Source: Thiotrichaceae bacterium (GTDB lineage Bacteria; Pseudomonadota; Gammaproteobacteria; Thiotrichales; Thiotrichaceae). From it: 40,296 bases of DNA. Each line of letters starts with the position of its first letter. Within the stretch, counting starts at the first letter, position 1. Shown one piece after another: positions 10,076-38,594 of this stretch. The stretch lies in assembly GCA_026991755.1 (NCBI GenBank), contig JALXAX010000175.1, positions 1-40,296 on the forward strand. The letters run 5' to 3'. The position numbers and the translations under genes were made by a program. Below the pieces are notes generated by a model. The model was not told the DNA's origin, ran no database searches, and saw nothing but the letters and a program-made list of their open reading frames with translations.

Positions 10076-10234
10076 GAGACCTTTGCATGAAAGTATGGCG
10101 AGAGAAAAAAGAGCGTAATTTTTCAGATTTTGTCTAAAAAGGAAGGTAATAGCCGAGCTATTGGCTAAGTTTTTAGACAAAATCTGGGAAATTTAAGCCT
10201 TTTTAATCCGTCATATCTTTCGTGCAAAGGTCTC
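10076..10234. mobile_element. MITE-like palindromic element, family A, full copy
   Basis: A 159-bp element bounded by GAGACCTTTGCATGAAAG and CTTTCGTGCAAAGGTCTC, with perfect 5-bp direct repeats ATTAT at 10071-10075 and 10235-10239. The inside folds on itself: arms AGATTTTGTCTAAAAA and TTTTTAGACAAAATCT enclose the core AATAGCCGAGCTATTGG at 10148-10164. It encodes nothing. Together with the 35-bp remnant it fills most of the 9966-10317 gap between dsbD and the DUF11 cluster. Confidence 0.85.
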
Positions 10235-27557: not shown

Positions 27558-28091
27558 TTTTTTAAATTCTTTTAGTTTTCTTTATTTGGAAGATTTGCAA
27601 AGGTCTCTAGATAAATGTTACCTGTCATCTCAGTCTAGGAGGCTGTCCGAGAGCTAAGAAACTACTGCAACCCCATAAACATCATAAGCCAACCTTGTTG
27701 AAGTTGTTAAATATTTAGTGTTTTGCTTGCAAATGACTTAAAAGCGAATGCAGAACAACTATTCACCTCATTCAATAAGCTCAACTTATGATGCTCCTGT
27801 GATTTTTGTTACGGTTCTGGTTCTCGTACAGCCTCTTAGGCCTTTCTATTGCGCATTATCTACATTTGACTAGGTGGTTTTCAAAGTCTACACTCATGGA
27901 GATTCTAATCATAAATGAGTGTTTTGTCTTTTTCGTGGCTTTATTTGAAAAGGCATTAATACGCAACATCCTAATTATAAGTTTTTTCGTCGGGCTACAC
28001 GTTATTTCATCATTAATTTAATTTAGGGTTTAATTTAGGGCATCTAGAACGCATTTTAAATGCAATTGTGGGATAAATAATAGTGGGGACG
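27558..28091. other. Intergenic region of 534 bp with two element remnants
   Basis: It holds a solo family A end at about 27590-27607 (TTTGCAAAGGTCTC) and a family D element at 27639-27835. A 71-codon frame at 27806-28021 is open and hydrophobic, but starts inside the element; I do not call it a gene. The last 70 bases contain the start site of the secreted mosaic gene, with GTGGGG before its ATG. Confidence 0.55.
27639..27835. mobile_element. MITE-like or insertion-sequence remnant, family D
   Basis: 197 bp with inverted ends GAGGCTGTCCGAGAGC and (reverse) GAGGCTGTACGAGAAC, two mismatches in 16. A second inverted pair, CATCATAAG and CTTATGATG, lies inside the ends. CTAG at the left and TTAG at the right may be a diverged 4-bp target duplication. 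No transposase is encoded. Confidence 0.6.
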
Positions 28092-31000
28092 ATGAAAATG
28101 ATAAGGCTAATTACTCTTATGCTGTTGTTAGTAACGCTTAATGTAGCTAATGCAGCACTTCCATCGCCGCCTTTAAATGGTAGCTACCCCATTGCTGATG
28201 TTGATCAGGATGGCACTATAACTCCTCTCTCGTATGGTGTGTTAACACTTAGATACCTGTTTGGTTTTAGAGGTCAGTCGTTAGTAAGTGGCAATATTGT
28301 TAGTGCCAGTTGTGCGCGCTGTTCTGCTACGCAAATTAGCACATATTTAGCTTCTACTGTTGAAACTAAGGTTTTAGATTGTGAAAATAACACTACAGTT
28401 TCCCCGCTCACGGATGGCTTGCTCTTTGTTCGTCATTTATTGGGTTTTACGGGTAGTACGTTAATTAATGATGTGGTGGGTTCTGGCGCGCAAGTTACTA
28501 CCGCTACCGCATTACAAGCTTGCCTTAATACACTAACTAATCCTGTTGATACAACTCCTCCTGTGATTACGTTAACAGGCCCTGATCCCTATGTCATTTT
28601 TGTAGGTAGCGGAGCATATAGTGATCCTGGCGCGAGTGCTGTTGATGCTGTGGATGGCGTCGTGAATGTAACGATTGACTCTTCTCAGGTTCTAACATCA
28701 ACGGTAGGTACGTATACAGTTACCTATACGGCTTCCGATAATGCAGGAAACTCTAGTACAGTAACTCGCAGTGTCAAGGTAGATCCCTCTCCAACGATTG
28801 CCGGGCTTATTGGTCATTGGCCATTAAATGAAAATACAGGGAATACAACGAGTGACCAATCGGATAGTTCCATTAACCTAAATGTTAATGGTGCAAACTG
28901 GGTTGCTGGTCAATTTGATTCTGCGCTTGAGTTTGCAGGTCCTGGTTCTAATCAAGATGTCTCTACGTCGAGTGCGGCAGCTTTACAAACATCTTCAGTA
29001 ACCATTTCTGCTTGGGTTTATCCTGATACTTCTAGCGAGTCTTGGGAGTGGGTTGCGTCTCAGGGTGATAACTACGGTTTGTATCTTGCTCCCACTAGCA
29101 GGAAAGTGGTATTTTATCTTAAGGATACGACGGGTATATGGATAACGGTTGAGTCTGAAAGTAATATTTTTCAATTTAACCAATGGCAGCATGTAGCAGG
29201 GACCTTCGATCTAACTACTCATACTATGAAGGCGTTTATTGATGGCAATGAAGTAGCAACAGCTAACTACGCTCAAGGGATTGCACATGATGCAGGTAAT
29301 GGGTTTACTATCGGTTCGATGCAAGGAAGCCGTTTGTTTAATGGAAAAATAGATGAGGTTCAGCTTTACAACGTTGCTTTGACTAAAGCACAAATTACAC
29401 AGTTAGCGCAAGGTACGGCAACGCCGCCATCATCGAATACAACCCTACGTATTTATCCACTGGGTGATTCCATCACCGATAGCATCAATGGCCGACCTAG
29501 TTATCGACGCCCACTTTGGTTTTTATTACAAAATGCAGGCTACAACGTCGATTTTGTTGGCTCATGGGCACGTAATGATTCAGGCCTAACGGATTATGAT
29601 TTAGATCATGATGGGCATGCAGGTGCGGAGGCAGGTGATATCGCACATGACCTTAATTATATACCAGGTACAACTACAGCCCCTGGCTATTTAGGCAGTG
29701 TAGATCCAAATATTGTGCTGTTGCATATTGGTACAAATGATCTTGATAGGGGGCAGACCGTTGCGAGTACCTTAACGGAGATAGATAGTATTATTCAAAG
29801 CTTACGTGCGAAAAATCCTTCTGTCGTTATCTTTCTTGCGAAGATTATTCCGATGCGAAACTTCGACACAGCAGCTTTTAATGCTCAAATTGATGGCTTT
29901 ATTGCGACACGAACTACCGCAACATCACCTATAATCGTGGTTGATCAATATACTGGTTATGATCCACAGACGGATAACTACGACAACTATCATCCGAATG
30001 AACAGGGTGAGAGCAAAATGGCGGGTAAGTGGTTTGCCGCACTGCAAGGTTATTTAGCAGGCCAACTCGCTGCTCAAACTACTACGGTTACACCTGCTGT
30101 TAATACCAATGCTCTGCGTAATCCGTTGAAGGGATTTCGTTGGATATTCAAAAACCAGGAGTATCAAACTGCTTTCCCTACAACTGCTGAGCGACCCTAT
30201 TTGTCTCTTGCAAAATGGTATCTAGCTTATGATTTGCTGGAGAATAATACAGCAGATGATGTACAGAAGATCATTGATTACTCCAATACGCTGTGGGCTG
30301 CTTTACCACAAGGTAATCAGAAAGTTGTACCAAGAGTCTATCTTCGTTACGGGGATGATGCTAACGCTGAAGATCGCTGGCCTGCGGATATGACTGCGGG
30401 AGACTTTTCATCAACTCAATTCTATACGCGCATTAACGCCTTTATTCAAAAGCTGGGACAAGCCTGGGATAATGACCCACGGATAGCTTATGTTGAAATG
30501 GGAATTTTAGGTGCATGGGGGGAACAACATACTCCTTACCCCACACCTGAAATGGAAGTTTTATTAGGAGGTGCATTTACTACTGCTTTTAAAAATAAAC
30601 AAGTTTTACATGCGGGTACGACAGATTATTTTCGTAATTACCCCTTTGCTACTTATTGGGATTCTTTTTCCCATCCTGTAGAAGAGCTTTTTGTTGACTG
30701 GTTAGAGGCAAACAGGCCAGATTCTTGGAAAAGTAGGGCTTATATTGGTGAAGTAGCTTATAACTTTGGTGGAGTTGAAAACTATTTAGGGGTTGATCCA
30801 ACAGATACCTTAAGTACGCCCGCCTATTTTAATCGTATTCTTAATTACTTAAATCGTACTCATAATACCAGTTTGTCTTGGATTGCTGATTACAATCAAA
30901 CAGCGGCTACCGCTGATGGTGCTGAATTAGTACAAAAGAAAATGGGTTATCGCTTCTTATTAGAAAATGTGACATTACCTAAGCAAGTTTCTCAAGGAAA

Positions 31001-31754
31001 TAACTTCCAAATTTCGTTTTCTATAAAGAATGAAGGTGTGGCTCCTTTTTATGAGAAGTGGCCTGTTGAGCTTGTTTTACTAGATCCAACAACTAAGCAA
31101 CCTGTTTGGAGGGAAGTCTTCCAAAGTGCAGACATAACAACGTGGATGCCAGGGGAAGATTGGAACTATGATAAGAATGACGCAACGATATTAGGTTCTG
31201 GGTATAACACACCTGCAGCATCGTATGTATCCACTGGTATTTTCAACTTGCCTGCAAGTGTTCCCAATGGTGAATATGTGGTTGCTTTGGCAGTACTTGA
31301 TCCAGCAGGAATGCACCCTTCATTAAGGTTTGCGACTACAAACTATATCAATGGTGGTTTCCACCCCGTTGCTAGAATAGGGGTTAATACGCTGTCCAGT
31401 AGCTATAATGCAGCTAATGTAACGTTTGATGATCCTCAATTAGATAATAGTCTTTTTTATGATAATAGCGTACCACCCGCCATTATCGTTACTGCACCAA
31501 AGGGTAACGTAAGTTGGAGTGGGGGAACGAACCAAGTAGTTTCCTGGAATTCCTATCAAGTCGGTGATTTTGTGGATATTGATATTTCGTTGGATAAAGG
31601 CGTGAACTGGATAAATCTAGTGACGAATACCCCTAATGACGGAAGTGAGTCAGTCTTTATTCCTATTAATTTAGGTACGACGACTGCGCGTATTCGCGTT
31701 AAAGCAACTAATGCTGAAGATGTGTCAAATGCTGACTTTACGGTGACAAATTAG
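28092..31754 (+). CDS. Secreted mosaic protein with SGNH esterase and DUF4832-like domains
   Basis: About 1220 residues. GTGGGG stands five bases before the ATG at 28092, so that start is chosen over the GTG at 28083. A signal peptide covers about 20 residues. Two dockerin-like units follow (DVDQDGTITPLSYGVLTLRY and a degenerate second with PLTDGLLFVRHLLGF). Then come an Ig-like domain (DTTPPVITLTGPDPY), a LamG/concanavalin-like domain at about 235-450 (LIGHWPLNENTGN, GKIDEVQLYN), and an SGNH hydrolase at about 455-660 with GDSITDS, HIGTNDLD and DNYHPNEQG, so its catalytic set is complete. A DUF4832-like region (NPLKGFRW, YVEMGILGAWGEQH) at about 675-1100 has a glycoside-hydrolase look. The last 110 residues form a KNH/Ser-Thr-type Ig domain (TAPKGNVSWSGGTNQVVSWN). 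Likely acts on extracellular polysaccharide; substrate unknown. Confidence 0.75.
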   Translation: MKMIRLITLMLLLVTLNVANAALPSPPLNGSYPIADVDQDGTITPLSYGVLTLRYLFGFRGQSLVSGNIVSASCARCSATQISTYLASTVETKVLDCENNTTVSPLTDGLLFVRHLLGFTGSTLINDVVGSGAQVTTATALQACLNTLTNPVDTTPPVITLTGPDPYVIFVGSGAYSDPGASAVDAVDGVVNVTIDSSQVLTSTVGTYTVTYTASDNAGNSSTVTRSVKVDPSPTIAGLIGHWPLNENTGNTTSDQSDSSINLNVNGANWVAGQFDSALEFAGPGSNQDVSTSSAAALQTSSVTISAWVYPDTSSESWEWVASQGDNYGLYLAPTSRKVVFYLKDTTGIWITVESESNIFQFNQWQHVAGTFDLTTHTMKAFIDGNEVATANYAQGIAHDAGNGFTIGSMQGSRLFNGKIDEVQLYNVALTKAQITQLAQGTATPPSSNTTLRIYPLGDSITDSINGRPSYRRPLWFLLQNAGYNVDFVGSWARNDSGLTDYDLDHDGHAGAEAGDIAHDLNYIPGTTTAPGYLGSVDPNIVLLHIGTNDLDRGQTVASTLTEIDSIIQSLRAKNPSVVIFLAKIIPMRNFDTAAFNAQIDGFIATRTTATSPIIVVDQYTGYDPQTDNYDNYHPNEQGESKMAGKWFAALQGYLAGQLAAQTTTVTPAVNTNALRNPLKGFRWIFKNQEYQTAFPTTAERPYLSLAKWYLAYDLLENNTADDVQKIIDYSNTLWAALPQGNQKVVPRVYLRYGDDANAEDRWPADMTAGDFSSTQFYTRINAFIQKLGQAWDNDPRIAYVEMGILGAWGEQHTPYPTPEMEVLLGGAFTTAFKNKQVLHAGTTDYFRNYPFATYWDSFSHPVEELFVDWLEANRPDSWKSRAYIGEVAYNFGGVENYLGVDPTDTLSTPAYFNRILNYLNRTHNTSLSWIADYNQTAATADGAELVQKKMGYRFLLENVTLPKQVSQGNNFQISFSIKNEGVAPFYEKWPVELVLLDPTTKQPVWREVFQSADITTWMPGEDWNYDKNDATILGSGYNTPAASYVSTGIFNLPASVPNGEYVVALAVLDPAGMHPSLRFATTNYINGGFHPVARIGVNTLSSSYNAANVTFDDPQLDNSLFYDNSVPPAIIVTAPKGNVSWSGGTNQVVSWNSYQVGDFVDIDISLDKGVNWINLVTNTPNDGSESVFIPINLGTTTARIRVKATNAEDVSNADFTVTN

Positions 31755-31955: not shown

Positions 31956-34900
31956 GTGTTAACACAACAACAAGTAATCGCATTTAGCCCCTATGACACG
32001 CCGCTTGAACCTGGTATCAACCTGATAGAAGCGAGTGCAGGCACTGGTAAAACCTTTTCTATTGCTATGCTGGTGATGCGCTTTATTCTGCAAAAGGGCT
32101 ATCGTATTGATCAGCTTCTAGTAGTGACCTTCACTAACGCAGCAGCTCAAGAATTACGTGATCGTATTCGTGCACGTTTACTTGAGGTGAAAGCCGTCTT
32201 TTCGGGTAAATCTACCAAAGATGATGTGTTTAATGAGTGGGTGGCTAGCCTGCCAGAACAATCTGCTAAAAATGCGTTGAGTGATGCTTTATCTGACATC
32301 GACAATGCCCATATATTCACCATTCATGGTTTTTGTCAGCGCATGTTAAGTCAATACGCGCTAGAGAGCGGTCAGATATTTGGCTCTGAGCTATTACAAA
32401 ATACGGCTCATATCAAACAACAAATTGCTGAAGATTATTGGCGTTTAACTACTTATTCTCGATCAGTAGATCAGGTGGTCTTGCTCAGGAATACGGCCAT
32501 CTCGCCTTATGGCCTTATGGCTAGTGTTAATGATATTCGTGAGGGTAGTACGGTTGTGCCAGACGCTGACAGTTTGGATAGTTGTTTAGCTGTATTAGAA
32601 GAAAGCTTACAAATCATTAGACAGACCATTAATGAAAGAATATCTAGCATAGAAAATGCTATACAGAATCATACTGACAAGTTTAAAAAAATCTATATTG
32701 ATGAGTTTTCGCAAATAAAAGACAAGTTGCAGTTGTGGGTAACTGGCTCGAATGTAGTGCTACCGCTAGATGAAATATTACTAATTAGCACTCAAGGTCT
32801 AAGTAATAACGGACTGAATGGCACTAAGTTTCGGAAAACTAAAGTCCTAACGGGTGAACAAAGGAAACGAGACTTCCTTAACGAACAAGGAATTGATGCA
32901 TCAGCTATTGATGAACTAGAGCCGTTACTGGATAGTTTGAGGATTGCTTTCCAAAAAGGCTTATATGTTTATAGCGAAGTGGAGATGGAAAGCCGTCTTA
33001 GCCAATCAAATCAACTTTCTTTCGACAGTATTATCAAGCGCTTATCACAGGCTCTACAAGGTGGGGTTGCTAACAAGGGTGATGAAAACAATGATAGCGA
33101 ACAACATTTAAAGCAGTTACTACAACATAAATTTCCTGTAGCTTTGATTGATGAGTTTCAGGATACGGATGATGCGCAGTGGACTATCTTTTCATCATTA
33201 GCTTCTCACTTAGCCTCTCAAGCAACAAGCAACTATCTCTACCTTATTGGCGACCCCAAACAGGCCATTTACAAATTCCGTGGTGCGGATATTTATTCTT
33301 ATTTATCAGCCAAGCAACAGGCACATCGCTATTATAATTTGACAACTAACTGGCGCTCACAACAACCCTTAGTTGATGCAGTGAATACGTTATTTGATGT
33401 TGATAAGCCGTTTCTGATTGAAGAAATTGCTTACTACCCCGTTAATGCAGCAAAACAGGAAACATCATTTTCTTTTGCAAATACGAAGCGTGCGGCAACA
33501 GAGGGCGCAGCAGGTAGTTCGGCGGAAAAATTAGTGCTGTGGGAGTTAGATAAAAATCCAAATCAAAAAGACGGTTATTGGTTGGCGTCTAAAGGCAAAC
33601 CCAAAGATCAAATCCGTACTCATGTGGTTAAAGAAATCCTAACGTTATTATCGCAAACGGATACTAATGGAGAAGTAGCCACAACATTACAACTCGATGG
33701 CAACCCAGTTGTACCTAGCGATATCGCCATCCTTGTACGAAGCAACCCAGAAGCTGCCACTTATCAACAGGTGTTGATGCAGTATGGCATACCAGCGGTG
33801 CTGAACAGTAAAACATCGGTATTTGCCAGTCAGCAAGCGGTTGAGATCTATCATCTGTTACAGGCCATTTTACGACCAGGCAATCAGCAATTAATTCGTT
33901 ATGCGCTTTGCCAATCGTGGTTCGGCTTAAGTGGAAATGATCTATATGACCTGTTGGATCAGCCACAACAGCTAGATACCTGGCTGATATGTTTTCAGCG
34001 TTATCATGAGCTATGGGAGCGCAAAGGTTTGCTTGCCATGATGCAAAAGCTAATAGCTGAGCAACAGGTAGTACAACATTTGGCTGTTTATGCCGATGTG
34101 GAACGAAGTATCACTAACATTAACCATGTTCTTGAAATGCTTCAGGAAGCGGCGATTTCTAATCGACTCAGCCCGCTAAAAACAGTGGAATGGTTGGAAG
34201 ATGCCATGCAAGAACGCATCATGCAAGACGGTCAGGAGCTACGTCTGGAAAGTGATAAAGACGCAGTTAGTATCGTTACTATTCATAGTTCCAAAGGCTT
34301 GGAATATCCTATTGTTTTTTGTCCTGATCTTTGGGCAAAAAGTGGTGGCTTTCATTCTAATATCGTTGTCGCGCATAAAGACGGTCAACAAATCAGCGAC
34401 CTCGGTAGTGGTGAGATAGAACAGCATCGAGCGCTGATGGATGAAGAGAATAGGGCAGAAGAATTACGTTTATTGTATGTAGCCATCACGCGAGCTAAAT
34501 ATCGTTGTTATTTAGCGTGGGCGGATCAACGTACGATTAAAGAAGAAAATGCTTCTGCACTAGCCTATCTGTATAAGCAGCAAGAAGGCGAGGATTGGCG
34601 GCAACGCATAGAGGCGTTACAAACAAAGAACGCCTCTGCATTTGAGCATATTATTTTAGAAGTCGATGCAGAAATAATGCAAAACTATCATCAATTAGGC
34701 TCTAATAAAGAATTAACTATTAGGAAGTTACAGCGAGAAGTAAAAGCAGATTGGATGATGAGTAGTTATAGTGCAATGGCCTATTACAGTGTACATGATG
34801 AAGTACCAGAACTGCCGTTAGATAAAGCACAAGAGAGTTATAACGCTACTGTTCAAGAAGTTCCAGTTATTGACCCACTTCCTAAAGGCGCACACACGGG

Positions 34901-35591
34901 TAATTTAGTGCATGAGTTATTGGAACATACATCGTTCTCGGTACTTTCTTCCATAGAGCCTGGTGAACTTGATAGCGAATATCTTGATAACAGAGAGAAA
35001 ATGATCAAGCGCTTTGCGGTGGACATTAAGAGCACTGAGGTGCTTGATCAATTGCTTAGTGATACTGTAAATACCGTTTTATCCGCAGATGATACAGATT
35101 TTAAATTGTGCAACTTAAGTGATCATCAATGCTTAAAAGAAATGCCGTTTTACTTTGCTATCGACCAACTTGATACGCTAGAAGTAAACCGAGTACTAGC
35201 TCAATCCGAAGCTTATTTGCCACTATCGGCACAGCAAATGCACGGCCAGCTAACAGGCTTTATTGATTTGATTTGTGAGTATCAAGGCAAGTATTACGTG
35301 ATGGATTACAAAACCAACTCTTTGGATGATTATAGTGTTGAGAAAATGACAGAGTCCATGCGCGAGCATAATTACGGCCTGCAGTATTGGATTTATTCAC
35401 TGGTTTTGCACCGTTACTTGACTCAAACGCTTGCAGATTACTCTTTTGATAAACACTTTGGTGGCGTGCGATATTTATTTGTGCGAGGCATGAAACCCGA
35501 TAAAGCTATGAGTGGTGTGTTTGAAGATCAGCCAGACCTTGTAACGTTACAAGCATTATCGCAAGCATTTTCATCAAGAGCTGTCTCATGA
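31956..35591 (+). CDS. recB: Exodeoxyribonuclease V beta subunit RecB
   Basis: 1211 residues (E. coli about 1180). RecB is the 3'-5' helicase and nuclease of RecBCD, which resects double-strand breaks for recombination. Walker A is at residues about 26-34 (ASAGTGKTF). UvrD-type helicase motifs follow: VTFTNAAAQELRDRIRARL, Walker B LIDEFQDTDDAQW near 395, GDPKQAIYKFRGAD near 428, VTIHSSKGLEYPIVF near 773 and LLYVAITRAK near 843. The C-terminal nuclease keeps GFIDLI near 1098 and MDYKTN near 1115. The frame is closed by a stop just upstream, so GTG at 31956 is the first possible start, with AGGAT before it. recD overlaps its end. No recC lies immediately upstream, where it is commonly found. 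Confidence 0.95.
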   Translation: MLTQQQVIAFSPYDTPLEPGINLIEASAGTGKTFSIAMLVMRFILQKGYRIDQLLVVTFTNAAAQELRDRIRARLLEVKAVFSGKSTKDDVFNEWVASLPEQSAKNALSDALSDIDNAHIFTIHGFCQRMLSQYALESGQIFGSELLQNTAHIKQQIAEDYWRLTTYSRSVDQVVLLRNTAISPYGLMASVNDIREGSTVVPDADSLDSCLAVLEESLQIIRQTINERISSIENAIQNHTDKFKKIYIDEFSQIKDKLQLWVTGSNVVLPLDEILLISTQGLSNNGLNGTKFRKTKVLTGEQRKRDFLNEQGIDASAIDELEPLLDSLRIAFQKGLYVYSEVEMESRLSQSNQLSFDSIIKRLSQALQGGVANKGDENNDSEQHLKQLLQHKFPVALIDEFQDTDDAQWTIFSSLASHLASQATSNYLYLIGDPKQAIYKFRGADIYSYLSAKQQAHRYYNLTTNWRSQQPLVDAVNTLFDVDKPFLIEEIAYYPVNAAKQETSFSFANTKRAATEGAAGSSAEKLVLWELDKNPNQKDGYWLASKGKPKDQIRTHVVKEILTLLSQTDTNGEVATTLQLDGNPVVPSDIAILVRSNPEAATYQQVLMQYGIPAVLNSKTSVFASQQAVEIYHLLQAILRPGNQQLIRYALCQSWFGLSGNDLYDLLDQPQQLDTWLICFQRYHELWERKGLLAMMQKLIAEQQVVQHLAVYADVERSITNINHVLEMLQEAAISNRLSPLKTVEWLEDAMQERIMQDGQELRLESDKDAVSIVTIHSSKGLEYPIVFCPDLWAKSGGFHSNIVVAHKDGQQISDLGSGEIEQHRALMDEENRAEELRLLYVAITRAKYRCYLAWADQRTIKEENASALAYLYKQQEGEDWRQRIEALQTKNASAFEHIILEVDAEIMQNYHQLGSNKELTIRKLQREVKADWMMSSYSAMAYYSVHDEVPELPLDKAQESYNATVQEVPVIDPLPKGAHTGNLVHELLEHTSFSVLSSIEPGELDSEYLDNREKMIKRFAVDIKSTEVLDQLLSDTVNTVLSADDTDFKLCNLSDHQCLKEMPFYFAIDQLDTLEVNRVLAQSEAYLPLSAQQMHGQLTGFIDLICEYQGKYYVMDYKTNSLDDYSVEKMTESMREHNYGLQYWIYSLVLHRYLTQTLADYSFDKHFGGVRYLFVRGMKPDKAMSGVFEDQPDLVTLQALSQAFSSRAVS

Positions 35592-37384
35592 AGATAGAAC
35601 AGAGTCAGAAGCATAAGCAACAACAGAAGCAGAATGAAGTCATGGATGTCTCCTCTTTTGATTACTCACGTCTTGATAACGCCATAGCCCAGTTTTTAAT
35701 GTCCAGATGTGCTTTTGATAAGGAGCATCAGGCAGAACAAAGAAATACTTTTAGGGATATTGTCAGAGAGCTATCTGCTGCTTTAGCCAAAGGTCATTCT
35801 TGTATTGCGGTATCTGATGATCAACAGCGATTGTTGAAAGAATCTGCTCTGATATATGAAGTAGATGATACCTCTTTAACCGATGTAGTGCGTACGAATA
35901 CTCCTTTAATTCTAGAAAACTCCAGGCTCTATCTACAGCGTTATTGGCACTACGAAACCCGCTTAGCCGAACAGTTAAGATACAAGATATCTAATAACCC
36001 ACAACACCATAATAATTTAGAAAAACTACTCGATAAATATTTCGAAATACAGACAGAAAAAGACTGGCAAAGAGAAGCAGCCATGAAGGTCTCTCAACAG
36101 TCTTTTAGTATTATTACCGGTGGCCCAGGTACGGGTAAAACCACAACCGTATTAAAAATCCTCGCATTGCTTCAAGAAATTCAACTCACTCAAGTATCAC
36201 CCGCTGGCACAAAACCTCTCAATATTGCACTAGCTGCTCCTACGGGAAAGGCCGCTATGCGTTTGCAAGAGAGCATCGGAGAAGGCAAAGAAAAGCTTAA
36301 TTGTAGTGATGAGATTAAAGCCTCTATAACTGATTCGGTAAGTACGATTCATCGTCTACTTGGTGCAAAACCTGCATCACCGTATTTTAAGCATCACGCG
36401 GATAATCCCCTTGTGTATGACGTGGTGGTTATTGATGAAGCCTCCATGGTCGATTTAGCGTTAATGAGCAAACTGGTGGATGCGTTACAGCCAGATGCAC
36501 GGCTTATATTGCTGGGCGATAAAGAGCAATTAGCTTCGGTAGAGTCTGGCGCTATCTTGGGTGATTTATCGCAGGGGTTGCCTGACAACACGATTGAGTT
36601 AAAAAAATCCTGGCGTTTTAAGGCGGAAATTAAAAATCTGGCATTAGCCATCAACCAGCAAAATGCTCAATTAGCCTGGCAACTGTTAGTATCCGATCAC
36701 GCATCTTCTACTGCTTTGGTGACGACAGCTTTATTGCCTCATATCATGCATCATACAAAAAACTACTTTGAAATAGTTAATAAAAACAATGCAATAGAGG
36801 AGATATTTAAAGCCTATAGAACGTTCCAAATCCTTTGTTCAAACCGGCGTGGTAAGTGGGGTGTAGAAGGCATTAATGCCAGTATTGAACGTGCTTTACA
36901 GCAACAAGGTGTGAATACCTCACAACGTTGGTATGCAGGTAAGCCTGTCATTATTACTCGTAATGATCCTGGCTTGGGGTTATTCAATGGTGATATTGGG
37001 ATTTGTTTGTTTGATGATGAAGAAATGGGTAACGAACAAAGGGAAAGAAAAGGGCAAAAAGACCTTTTGGTTTATTTTCAATTAGCAGATGGTCGTATCA
37101 AAAAACTATTGCCAGCACGTTTGCCCCAGCATGAAACCGCTTATGCATTGACGATTCATAAAAGTCAGGGTTCTGAGTTTAAGCATATCCTCATGGTGTT
37201 GCCTGAAACTCCCAATCCTGTGTTAGGAAAAGAGCTAGTTTACACTGCCATTACACGTGCCAAAGAAACAGTAGAAGTCTTCAGTAGTGAGAATGTATTT
37301 TCATATGCATTGAGCCGTAAGGTAGTGCGTATTAGTGGTTTACAGGATAAGGTGAGACCTTTGCACGAAAGAAATGACGAATAA
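35588..37384 (+). CDS. recD: Exodeoxyribonuclease V alpha subunit RecD, C-terminus altered by an element
   Basis: 598 residues (E. coli about 608). RecD is the 5'-3' helicase of RecBCD. Its N-terminal non-helicase domain is followed by Walker A at about 178-185 (GGPGTGKT), Walker B VIDEASMVD, GDKEQLASVESGAILGDL, a glutamine-kinase style IHKSQGSEF and YTAITRAK near the end. The ATG overlaps the recB stop (ATGA), so translation is coupled. The last nine residues (RPLHERNDE) and the TAA lie inside a family A element at 37354-37512. Without it the frame would read on as VSLLKGNNSE and stop at a TGA overlapping the truD ATG. The catalytic core is untouched, so the protein is probably active. Confidence 0.94.
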   Translation: MKIEQSQKHKQQQKQNEVMDVSSFDYSRLDNAIAQFLMSRCAFDKEHQAEQRNTFRDIVRELSAALAKGHSCIAVSDDQQRLLKESALIYEVDDTSLTDVVRTNTPLILENSRLYLQRYWHYETRLAEQLRYKISNNPQHHNNLEKLLDKYFEIQTEKDWQREAAMKVSQQSFSIITGGPGTGKTTTVLKILALLQEIQLTQVSPAGTKPLNIALAAPTGKAAMRLQESIGEGKEKLNCSDEIKASITDSVSTIHRLLGAKPASPYFKHHADNPLVYDVVVIDEASMVDLALMSKLVDALQPDARLILLGDKEQLASVESGAILGDLSQGLPDNTIELKKSWRFKAEIKNLALAINQQNAQLAWQLLVSDHASSTALVTTALLPHIMHHTKNYFEIVNKNNAIEEIFKAYRTFQILCSNRRGKWGVEGINASIERALQQQGVNTSQRWYAGKPVIITRNDPGLGLFNGDIGICLFDDEEMGNEQRERKGQKDLLVYFQLADGRIKKLLPARLPQHETAYALTIHKSQGSEFKHILMVLPETPNPVLGKELVYTAITRAKETVEVFSSENVFSYALSRKVVRISGLQDKVRPLHERNDE

Positions 37385-37512
37385 AAATGGCTTGAATTCC
37401 CTCTATTTCTGCTAAAAATTCGGCCAATAGCTCGGCTATTACCCTCTTTTTTAGCAAAAATAGAGAAAATTACGCTCATTTTTCTCTCGCCATTCTTTCA
37501 TGCAAAGGTCTC
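37354..37512. mobile_element. MITE-like palindromic element, family A, full copy at the recD 3' end
   Basis: 159 bp, the same size as the copy at 10076-10234. The ends are GAGACCTTTGCACGAAAG and CTTTCATGCAAAGGTCTC. Perfect AAGGT target duplications are at 37349-37353 and 37513-37517. Arms such as CTCTATTTCTGCTAAAAA and TTTTTTAGCAAAAATAGAG pair around the core CCAATAGCTCGGCTATT at 37424-37440. It replaces the natural end of recD and adds 164 bp before truD. Confidence 0.92.
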
Positions 37513-37544
37513 AAGGTAAGTCTTTTAAAAGGTAATAATAGCGA

Positions 37545-38594
37545 ATGAACTTTCAACCCCTCTATCAACCCCTTATTAAGGGTAGTATTCGTAATAAACC
37601 TGAAGATTTTAGGGTTGATGAAATACCCTCGTTTTCGCCAGCGGGAGAAGGTGAACACCTGTTCTTACATATAAAAAAAACAGGAGCTAATACAGATTGG
37701 TTAGCAGGCCAACTTGCTCGTGTACTTGGAGTGAAGAAACGAGATGTCAGCTATGCAGGCTTAAAGGACCGAAACGCAGTGACAACACAATGGTTTAGTG
37801 TTTATCTACCCGGTAAACAGACGCCTGATGTCAGTAAACTAATGCCTAAATCATTAGCCACTGACATAGAAATCCTACAACAGACTCGTCATGTGAAAAA
37901 GCTGCGTAGAGGCTCACTGGAAGGTAATCGTTTTGTTATTACGATACGTGATTGCGACTATGTTGAATCTGATAAAGAAAAGCTTGAGCAGTGTATTCAG
38001 GAAATACGAGAGCAGGGGATTCCTAATTACTTTGGTGAGCAACGTTTCGGTCATAAAACAGAGCAGGGTTGGAATAATATAGAAAAGGCTACCGCTTGGT
38101 TTAACGGTGAGATAAAAAGACCGAAAAATAGAAATCAGAGTGGTTTGTATTTGTCAGCCGCACGCTCGTTGATCTTCAATCATATATTATCTGAGCGTAT
38201 TACCAATAAAACATGGAATCAGCACGTTGAAGGTGATGTTTTTATGTTGGGTAATAGTAGATCATGGTTTGCTGATGATAGTGACGAGAAAATTAATCAT
38301 CGACTTCAGCAATTTGATATTCATCCAAGTGGTGCTTTATGGGGCAGGGGGAGACTAAGTACAAAAGATGAGTCATTTGCTTTAGAAAACAACATAGCGA
38401 AACACTATCCCGTTTTATGCGAAGGGCTGGAAAGAAATGGCCTAAAACAAGAGAGACGTTCTTTGCGTATAAGAGTTAAAGAGCTGGATCATCAATGGCT
38501 TGATGAGTCCAGCTTGCGGCTTAGTTTCGTATTGCCAGCAGGGTCATATGCCACAACTTTGCTGGAGCAAATTGTGTCTATTGCTGTTCATTGA
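37545..38594 (+). CDS. truD: tRNA pseudouridine(13) synthase TruD
   Basis: 349 residues, the same length as E. coli TruD, which converts uridine 13 of some tRNAs to pseudouridine. The catalytic aspartate is in AGLKDRNAVTTQWFS (Asp75). NYFGEQRFG at about 162-170 and the motif GALWGRGRLST are also present, as is the C-terminal LPAGSYATTLLEQI. The gene begins at an ATG that was probably overlapped by the original recD stop; the present recD ends 160 bases earlier because of the element. The start is therefore now outside the reach of recD ribosomes, and its own initiation must rely on GGTAATAATAGCGA, a poor Shine-Dalgarno. Confidence 0.95.
   Translation: MNFQPLYQPLIKGSIRNKPEDFRVDEIPSFSPAGEGEHLFLHIKKTGANTDWLAGQLARVLGVKKRDVSYAGLKDRNAVTTQWFSVYLPGKQTPDVSKLMPKSLATDIEILQQTRHVKKLRRGSLEGNRFVITIRDCDYVESDKEKLEQCIQEIREQGIPNYFGEQRFGHKTEQGWNNIEKATAWFNGEIKRPKNRNQSGLYLSAARSLIFNHILSERITNKTWNQHVEGDVFMLGNSRSWFADDSDEKINHRLQQFDIHPSGALWGRGRLSTKDESFALENNIAKHYPVLCEGLERNGLKQERRSLRIRVKELDHQWLDESSLRLSFVLPAGSYATTLLEQIVSIAVH

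Follow-up and report, generated by a model that had tools for sequence, protein, structure and literature searches.

The 159-bp element found between recD and truD is very probably an inserted copy of a high-copy, IS5-type miniature inverted-repeat element (MITE). It lies in the window, that is, the whole stretch of 40,296 nucleotides that was analyzed, which is a contig from a Thiotrichaceae bacterium. The insertion is ordinary in kind, and the first-pass annotation saw and reconstructed it correctly. It is a clean example of a bacterial MITE that has landed in a core-gene operon with apparently little damage, since the recD tail varies among relatives, the element has its own stops, and truD keeps an SD-like sequence. 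Of greater interest than the insertion in recD is the strand-biased hairpin of the element family, which is unusually well conserved. The features of the window are listed in Table 1.

Table 1. Coordinates of the features around the recD-truD junction, and of a second copy of the element, in the window.
Feature	Position	Strand	Remarks
recB	31956-35591	+	TIGR00609; 4-nt overlap with recD start (ATGA)
recD (exodeoxyribonuclease V alpha)	35588-37384	+	TIGR01447; residues 590-598 (RPLHERNDE) and TAA stop encoded by the element
Left target-site duplication AAGGT	37349-37353		Window letters
Near-palindrome, 159 bp, very probably a MITE	37354-37512	+	Ends GAGACCTTTGCA ... TGCAAAGGTCTC; stops in all six frames
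Right target-site duplication AAGGT	37513-37517		Window letters
Former recD 3' end, remnant	37518-37548	+	Old codons SLLKGNNSE, TGA at 37546-37548
AAAAGG, SD-like	37527-37532	+	12 nt upstream of the truD ATG; left intact past the element
truD (tRNA pseudouridine-13 synthase)	37545-38594	+	NF002153; ATG 160 nt past the present recD stop
Second copy of the element, diverged	10076-10234	-	84% identity; target-site duplication ATTAT

The genes recB, recD, and truD were assigned by the profiles given in Table 1, and all three matches are above cutoff. An ORF of 1223 aa with a signal-peptide-like start is located upstream of recB (28083-31754).

The letters of the window agree with the first-pass description of a palindromic element flanked by perfect AAGGT duplications, and the genome-wide core matches described below support it. 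If the element and one AAGGT copy are removed, recD reads ...QDKVSLLKGNNSE-TGA. In this rebuilt junction (VRISGLQDKVSLLKGNNSE followed by the stop), the TGA overlaps the truD ATG as ATGA; the junction as it would have been before the insertion can be rebuilt. Just one of the three frames is open through the rebuilt junction, and the other two hold stops. The element went in 31 nt ahead of the final base of the rebuilt recD stop. At present, recD ends with ...DKVRPLHERNDE-TAA inside the element. The last nine codons have been replaced (SLLKGNNSE by RPLHERNDE), and the valine preceding them is unchanged, its codon having turned from GTA to GTG. The statements that the element supplies the present stop codon, that the new end is as long as the old one, and that recB and recD meet in the same ATGA arrangement were all correct. 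The match to the RecD model TIGR01447 extends to residue 588, which corresponds to position 596 of the 597 in the profile, and the residues encoded by the element lie beyond it; thus, no modelled part of RecD has been lost.

The element belongs to a large family in this genome. The whole-genome search revealed at least 40 copies at 95-100% identity (40 scored out of 252 candidates, on both strands), and the window element is identical to one copy elsewhere in the genome. The core pattern matched the genome 143 times and its reversed control 0 times, which indicates that the element is not a product of chance; the end motif matched 351 times, and the reversed pattern 0 times. In the stretches of the genome that were examined, 97 copies are full-length. 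They include 66 copies of 158-160 bp, 26 copies of 211-214 bp, and 5 copies of other lengths. Members of a longer class of 207-213 bp (L102, L103, L104, L107, and L111-L114) carry an extra segment of ~53 bp near one end, with a small hairpin of its own, CCGTTTT...AAAACGG. The 5-bp target-site duplication is perfect in 61 of the 97 copies, has one mismatch in 15, and has two or more mismatches in 21. The G+C content of the duplication is 13% in the 61 perfect cases. The element is therefore short and non-coding with inverted terminal repeats, its copies are many and dispersed, and a duplication of fixed length is seen at many independent sites, all of which are characters of MITEs. Against the IS5-type MITE weigh the 21 of 97 copies with two or more mismatches and the AAGGT duplication itself, whose G+C content exceeds that of most targets.

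The second copy in the window sits between two ORFs on the - strand. In another copy, L006:2397-2555 (G000:C159:8648-8806), the centre of the palindrome is reversed relative to the arms, as if the middle had been inverted between them.

A number of copies are within ~100 bases of a contig end, which indicates that these repeats did break the assembly, and the junction at recD might be suspected of being an assembly artefact as well. The copy at recD is ~2.8 kb inside its contig, its duplication is exact, and the flanking genes are coherent; an artefact is thus extremely improbable.

The genome contains one intact copy of an IS5-family element (L078:1013-2205; 1193 bp), with a transposase ORF of 328 aa that scores 267.5 bits against the profile NF033581 (cutoff 140). 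The left end of the MITE is identical to the left end of this IS at 18/18 bases and to its right end at 15/15 bases. For the right end of the MITE, the agreement with the two IS ends is 17/18 and 12/12 bases. The comparison of the internal sequences of the MITE and this IS showed no similarity above chance. The MITE thus shares its ends with an autonomous IS5-family element, as is characteristic of IS5-type MITEs. The flanks of the single intact IS copy mismatch at three of five positions and no 5-bp duplication is visible there, so the partner is assigned by its ends. This counts against the IS5-type MITE in that the duplication length of the IS is not matched to that of the MITE. Degraded relatives of this IS are present on contigs C74 and C42. 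The available portion of PMC4596501 lists GAGACCTTTGCAAAA as an end of ISNme1 and gives an end motif for ISPg1 to which that of the MITE is close; both ISs belong to the IS5 family.

REP/BIME-, ERIC-, and Correia-type repeats, in part as described in the review literature, have a similar copy number and a palindromic form. The window element might be one of them and not an IS5-type MITE. Against this are the AT-rich 5-bp duplications and the ends common to the resident IS5-family element, with ERIC and Correia compared by description. A search of the stretch in the window and of four loci produced no Rfam match at gathering score. We consider it most improbable that the element is a repeat of these types. 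A match to MIR8562 (E 2e-4, 34.7 bits; gathering score 211) was dismissed as a match to a long hairpin. The plasmid collection contained 0 matches to the element.

As the mechanism of the insertion, we propose that the GAGACCTTTGCA ends were recognized by a transposase of the IS5 family, for example that of the intact element in the genome, and that double-strand transposition, with cuts staggered by 5 bp, would have moved the element. That the insertion was tolerated is probably due to its position beyond the conserved domain of RecD, in a tail that is variable among relatives, to the stops that the element has in every frame, and to the lack of a terminator-like site in the scan of the + strand. 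recD and truD may therefore still share a transcript. Two further candidates were rejected. A promoter carried by the element and driving truD was discarded as no sigma-70-like site was found within 37200-37700. A terminator between recD and truD was discarded as well; the only terminator-like site is on the - strand.

The gene contexts were determined for 95 copies, after two of the 97 were dropped for short flanks. ORFs of at least 100 aa served as gene proxies, with which single calls may err. There are 48 copies between co-directional genes, 16 between divergent genes, and 10 between convergent genes; 7 are at gene starts, 5 at gene ends, and 3 inside ORFs, while 6 were left unjudged. Among the five copies at gene ends, recD is the sole clear case in which several residues are replaced, and its duplication is perfect. 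In three others (C12:26862 and C61:20982, both with perfect duplications, and C121:3467, with none recognizable), the gene still stops at the codon at which it would stop in the joined flanks, with one or two initial bases of the element completing that codon. The fifth, C111:2918, has two mismatches in its duplication and is a doubtful case.

The first-pass annotation further claimed that the insertion had broken a translational coupling of recD and truD, and proposed a check of this junction in relatives. The 29 truD loci of relatives (L048-L076) have flanks of up to 1.5 kb, and several of them are cut by contig ends. Only in one of the 29, that of G004, is recD beside truD. There, recD ends with SGLSQKLVVNSQ-TAA, and the truD start is 456 bp further on. 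The gap contains an ORF of 91 aa on the opposite strand (L087:4709-4984), which may encode a BrnA-type antitoxin. The recD end could be read in seven relatives (G001, G004, G005, and L088-L091) by reading on from the ends of the tblastn matches. The ATGA overlap of recD with truD was observed in 0 of these seven, and their recD tails differ in length and sequence. The RecD proteins of these relatives show just about 38-58% identity (tblastn), and the comparison therefore neither confirms nor refutes the coupling. In L089, recD overlaps another gene as ATGA. In G005, recD and truD might be adjacent across a contig break, whose two ends have nothing longer than 9 nt in common.

In G012, and apparently in G024, truD overlaps an upstream gene other than recD by 4 nt, which makes a coupling of truD plausible in Thiotrichaceae. 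The 4-nt overlap of truD thus occurs in this family, and that with recD is seen solely in the reconstruction of the junction before the insertion. If recD and truD were coupled by their stop and start, that coupling would have been lost, and truD would now depend on its own ribosome-binding site. As far as the junction sequence goes, a loss of coupling through the insertion is a fair inference. That the coupling was a working one, and that truD output was changed by its loss, is possible but on balance doubtful. The rebuilt junction closes as ATGA in its sole open frame, recB and recD are joined likewise, and the truD overlaps in G012 and apparently G024 point the same way. The ATGA match alone is worth approximately a factor of three, as one of three frames could give it. 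On the other side, no relative with a readable recD end shows the overlap, the gene order is kept in G004 alone with the two genes well apart, and AAAAGG is retained upstream of truD. Of the first-pass claim, the closure of the rebuilt junction stands, and conservation of the overlap was not seen in the relatives.

The MITE is distributed beyond this genome. It was found in 18 of 60 genomes of the family Thiotrichaceae, this genome included, which represent four of eight genera; some of the 18 have only partial matches. Of the five further genomes in the genus, three contain no match. We aligned 34 copies from 13 genomes, including this one; L046, whose right end was impossible to place, was left out. 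The length is 155-161 bp in 32 of the 34 copies, and 149 and 165 bp in the others. The 32 copies from outside the window are ~69-88% identical to the query. Perfect 5-bp duplications are observed in 16 of these 32 copies, which were read from other genomes.

The inverted-repeat arms of the window element (37353-37431 and 37435-37513) are 73% complementary. As a single strand, the element has a folding energy of -64.5 kcal/mol (+ strand, z of -12.5) or -88.8 kcal/mol (- strand, z of -16.4), and 0 of 200 shuffles equalled it on either strand. Of the 32 non-window copies, 30 fold better on the - strand, as do all 48 copies of 158-160 bp tested in this genome. Covariation was examined on 21 hand-picked representatives spanning the genomes. 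Their - strand consensus has -53.3 kcal/mol and 59 pairs, 36 of which have changes on both sides; the + strand consensus has -15.1 kcal/mol and 50 pairs, 30 of which have such changes. Pairing cells make up 94.1% on the - strand; shuffles reach 84.1%, and slid alignments no more than 55.6%. The 36 pairs with both-side changes compare with 14.8 for shuffles and no more than 19 for slid alignments. These figures favour the structure because it was derived from the same alignment. The evidence for compensatory change in the family hairpin is strong.

G.U pairs are concentrated largely on one strand. At pairs chosen by Watson-Crick agreement, which is strand-neutral, the - strand shows 98 G.U cells against 30 A.C cells, or 46 against 23 distinct types (p=0.008). 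G.U exceeds A.C in 18 of the 21 representatives, is smaller in two, and ties in one. A second alignment, restricted to the outer stem, gave 33 against 16 (p=0.02). These p-values are too optimistic, because the representatives are related. With 13 pairs of the + strand consensus, the bias was not significant (10 against 4 distinct types, p=0.18). For columns that occur in no more than two representatives, the ratio is just 31 to 21, and most of the G.U excess comes from columns that are older and shared (10 to 1). Recent copies in this genome show no strand bias, with 16 against 13 distinct transitions.

The compensatory changes together with the one-strand G.U bias hint at selection on the folded strand. 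Templated correction of the palindrome would also yield compensatory changes, and one asymmetric ancestor could account for much of the G.U bias. We propose, very tentatively and as an unlikely reading for now, that what is maintained in this MITE clade is a folded single strand with fixed polarity, and that the transcripts or single-stranded DNA of this strand must fold for the element to persist. Across four genera, the length stays near 159 bp and the pairing is kept while the sequence changes, and the wobble pairs are biased towards one strand; whether selection can act on some MITEs as structured RNA or DNA, beyond their role as transposase substrates, is thereby testable.

It is also conceivable that the copy between recD and truD is no neutral insertion and has been domesticated as a regulatory hairpin, serving as a processing or stability site. 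The very stable fold on both strands and the conserved stem, covarying across genera, would suit such a role. The copies between co-directional genes show no clear preference of orientation (29 against 19, p=0.19; 33 against 20, p=0.10, with the gene-end cases added), the element is at this site in none of the relatives examined, and its identity with another copy in the genome fits recent transposition. Domestication is accordingly improbable, and the insertion of an IS5-type MITE is preferred. A hand count of the first 53 contexts had suggested an orientation bias of 22:10, which the larger set did not support.

Literature searches on Thiotrichaceae with miniature inverted-repeat elements found no account of the element at recD. 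Searches combining MITEs with stop codons, translational coupling, or operon insertion yielded only unrelated work, and those on bacterial MITE hairpins with compensatory change yielded only IS605 stem loops.

By its ends, the element resembles BrickBuilt, an IS5-related MITE of Porphyromonas gingivalis. The 12-bp ends GAGACCTTTGCA and TGCAAAGGTCTC are as listed for BrickBuilt_4 in the accessible part of PMC4596501, where BrickBuilt ends are likened to those of IS5-family ISPg elements and ISNme1 is also listed. BrickBuilt, as described there, contains a minisatellite, is present at 19 loci, and has possibly non-canonical duplications, whereas the window MITE is a plain palindrome with its many core matches and regular 5-bp duplications. 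Chunjie, a MITE of Geobacter uraniireducens, is likewise inserted in an operon, and the title concerned speaks of an undisturbed operon structure, while the review, in the portion available, describes it as disrupting one of two operons for phosphate uptake (PMC10969869). Chunjie is 178-235 bp long against 159 bp here, and the two are likened by description and not by ends or duplications. The hupL and dsrA MITEs of Candidatus Thiomargarita nelsonii are also high-copy elements of a sulfur bacterium, the hupL MITE being present on 260 of 439 contigs (PMC4853749, in part). The hupL MITE has 10-bp direct repeats and 19-bp inverted repeats, and the dsrA element has TATAG direct repeats; the window MITE, with variable 5-bp duplications and GAGACC ends, is by description unlike both. 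The Correia/NEMIS elements of Neisseria are also small repeats; once transcribed, their stem-loops are proposed to affect neighbouring mRNAs through RNase III (PMC2229807, in part). Their 155-bp form reportedly has stops in all frames, like the window MITE, and the different host and ends set Correia/NEMIS apart from it by description.
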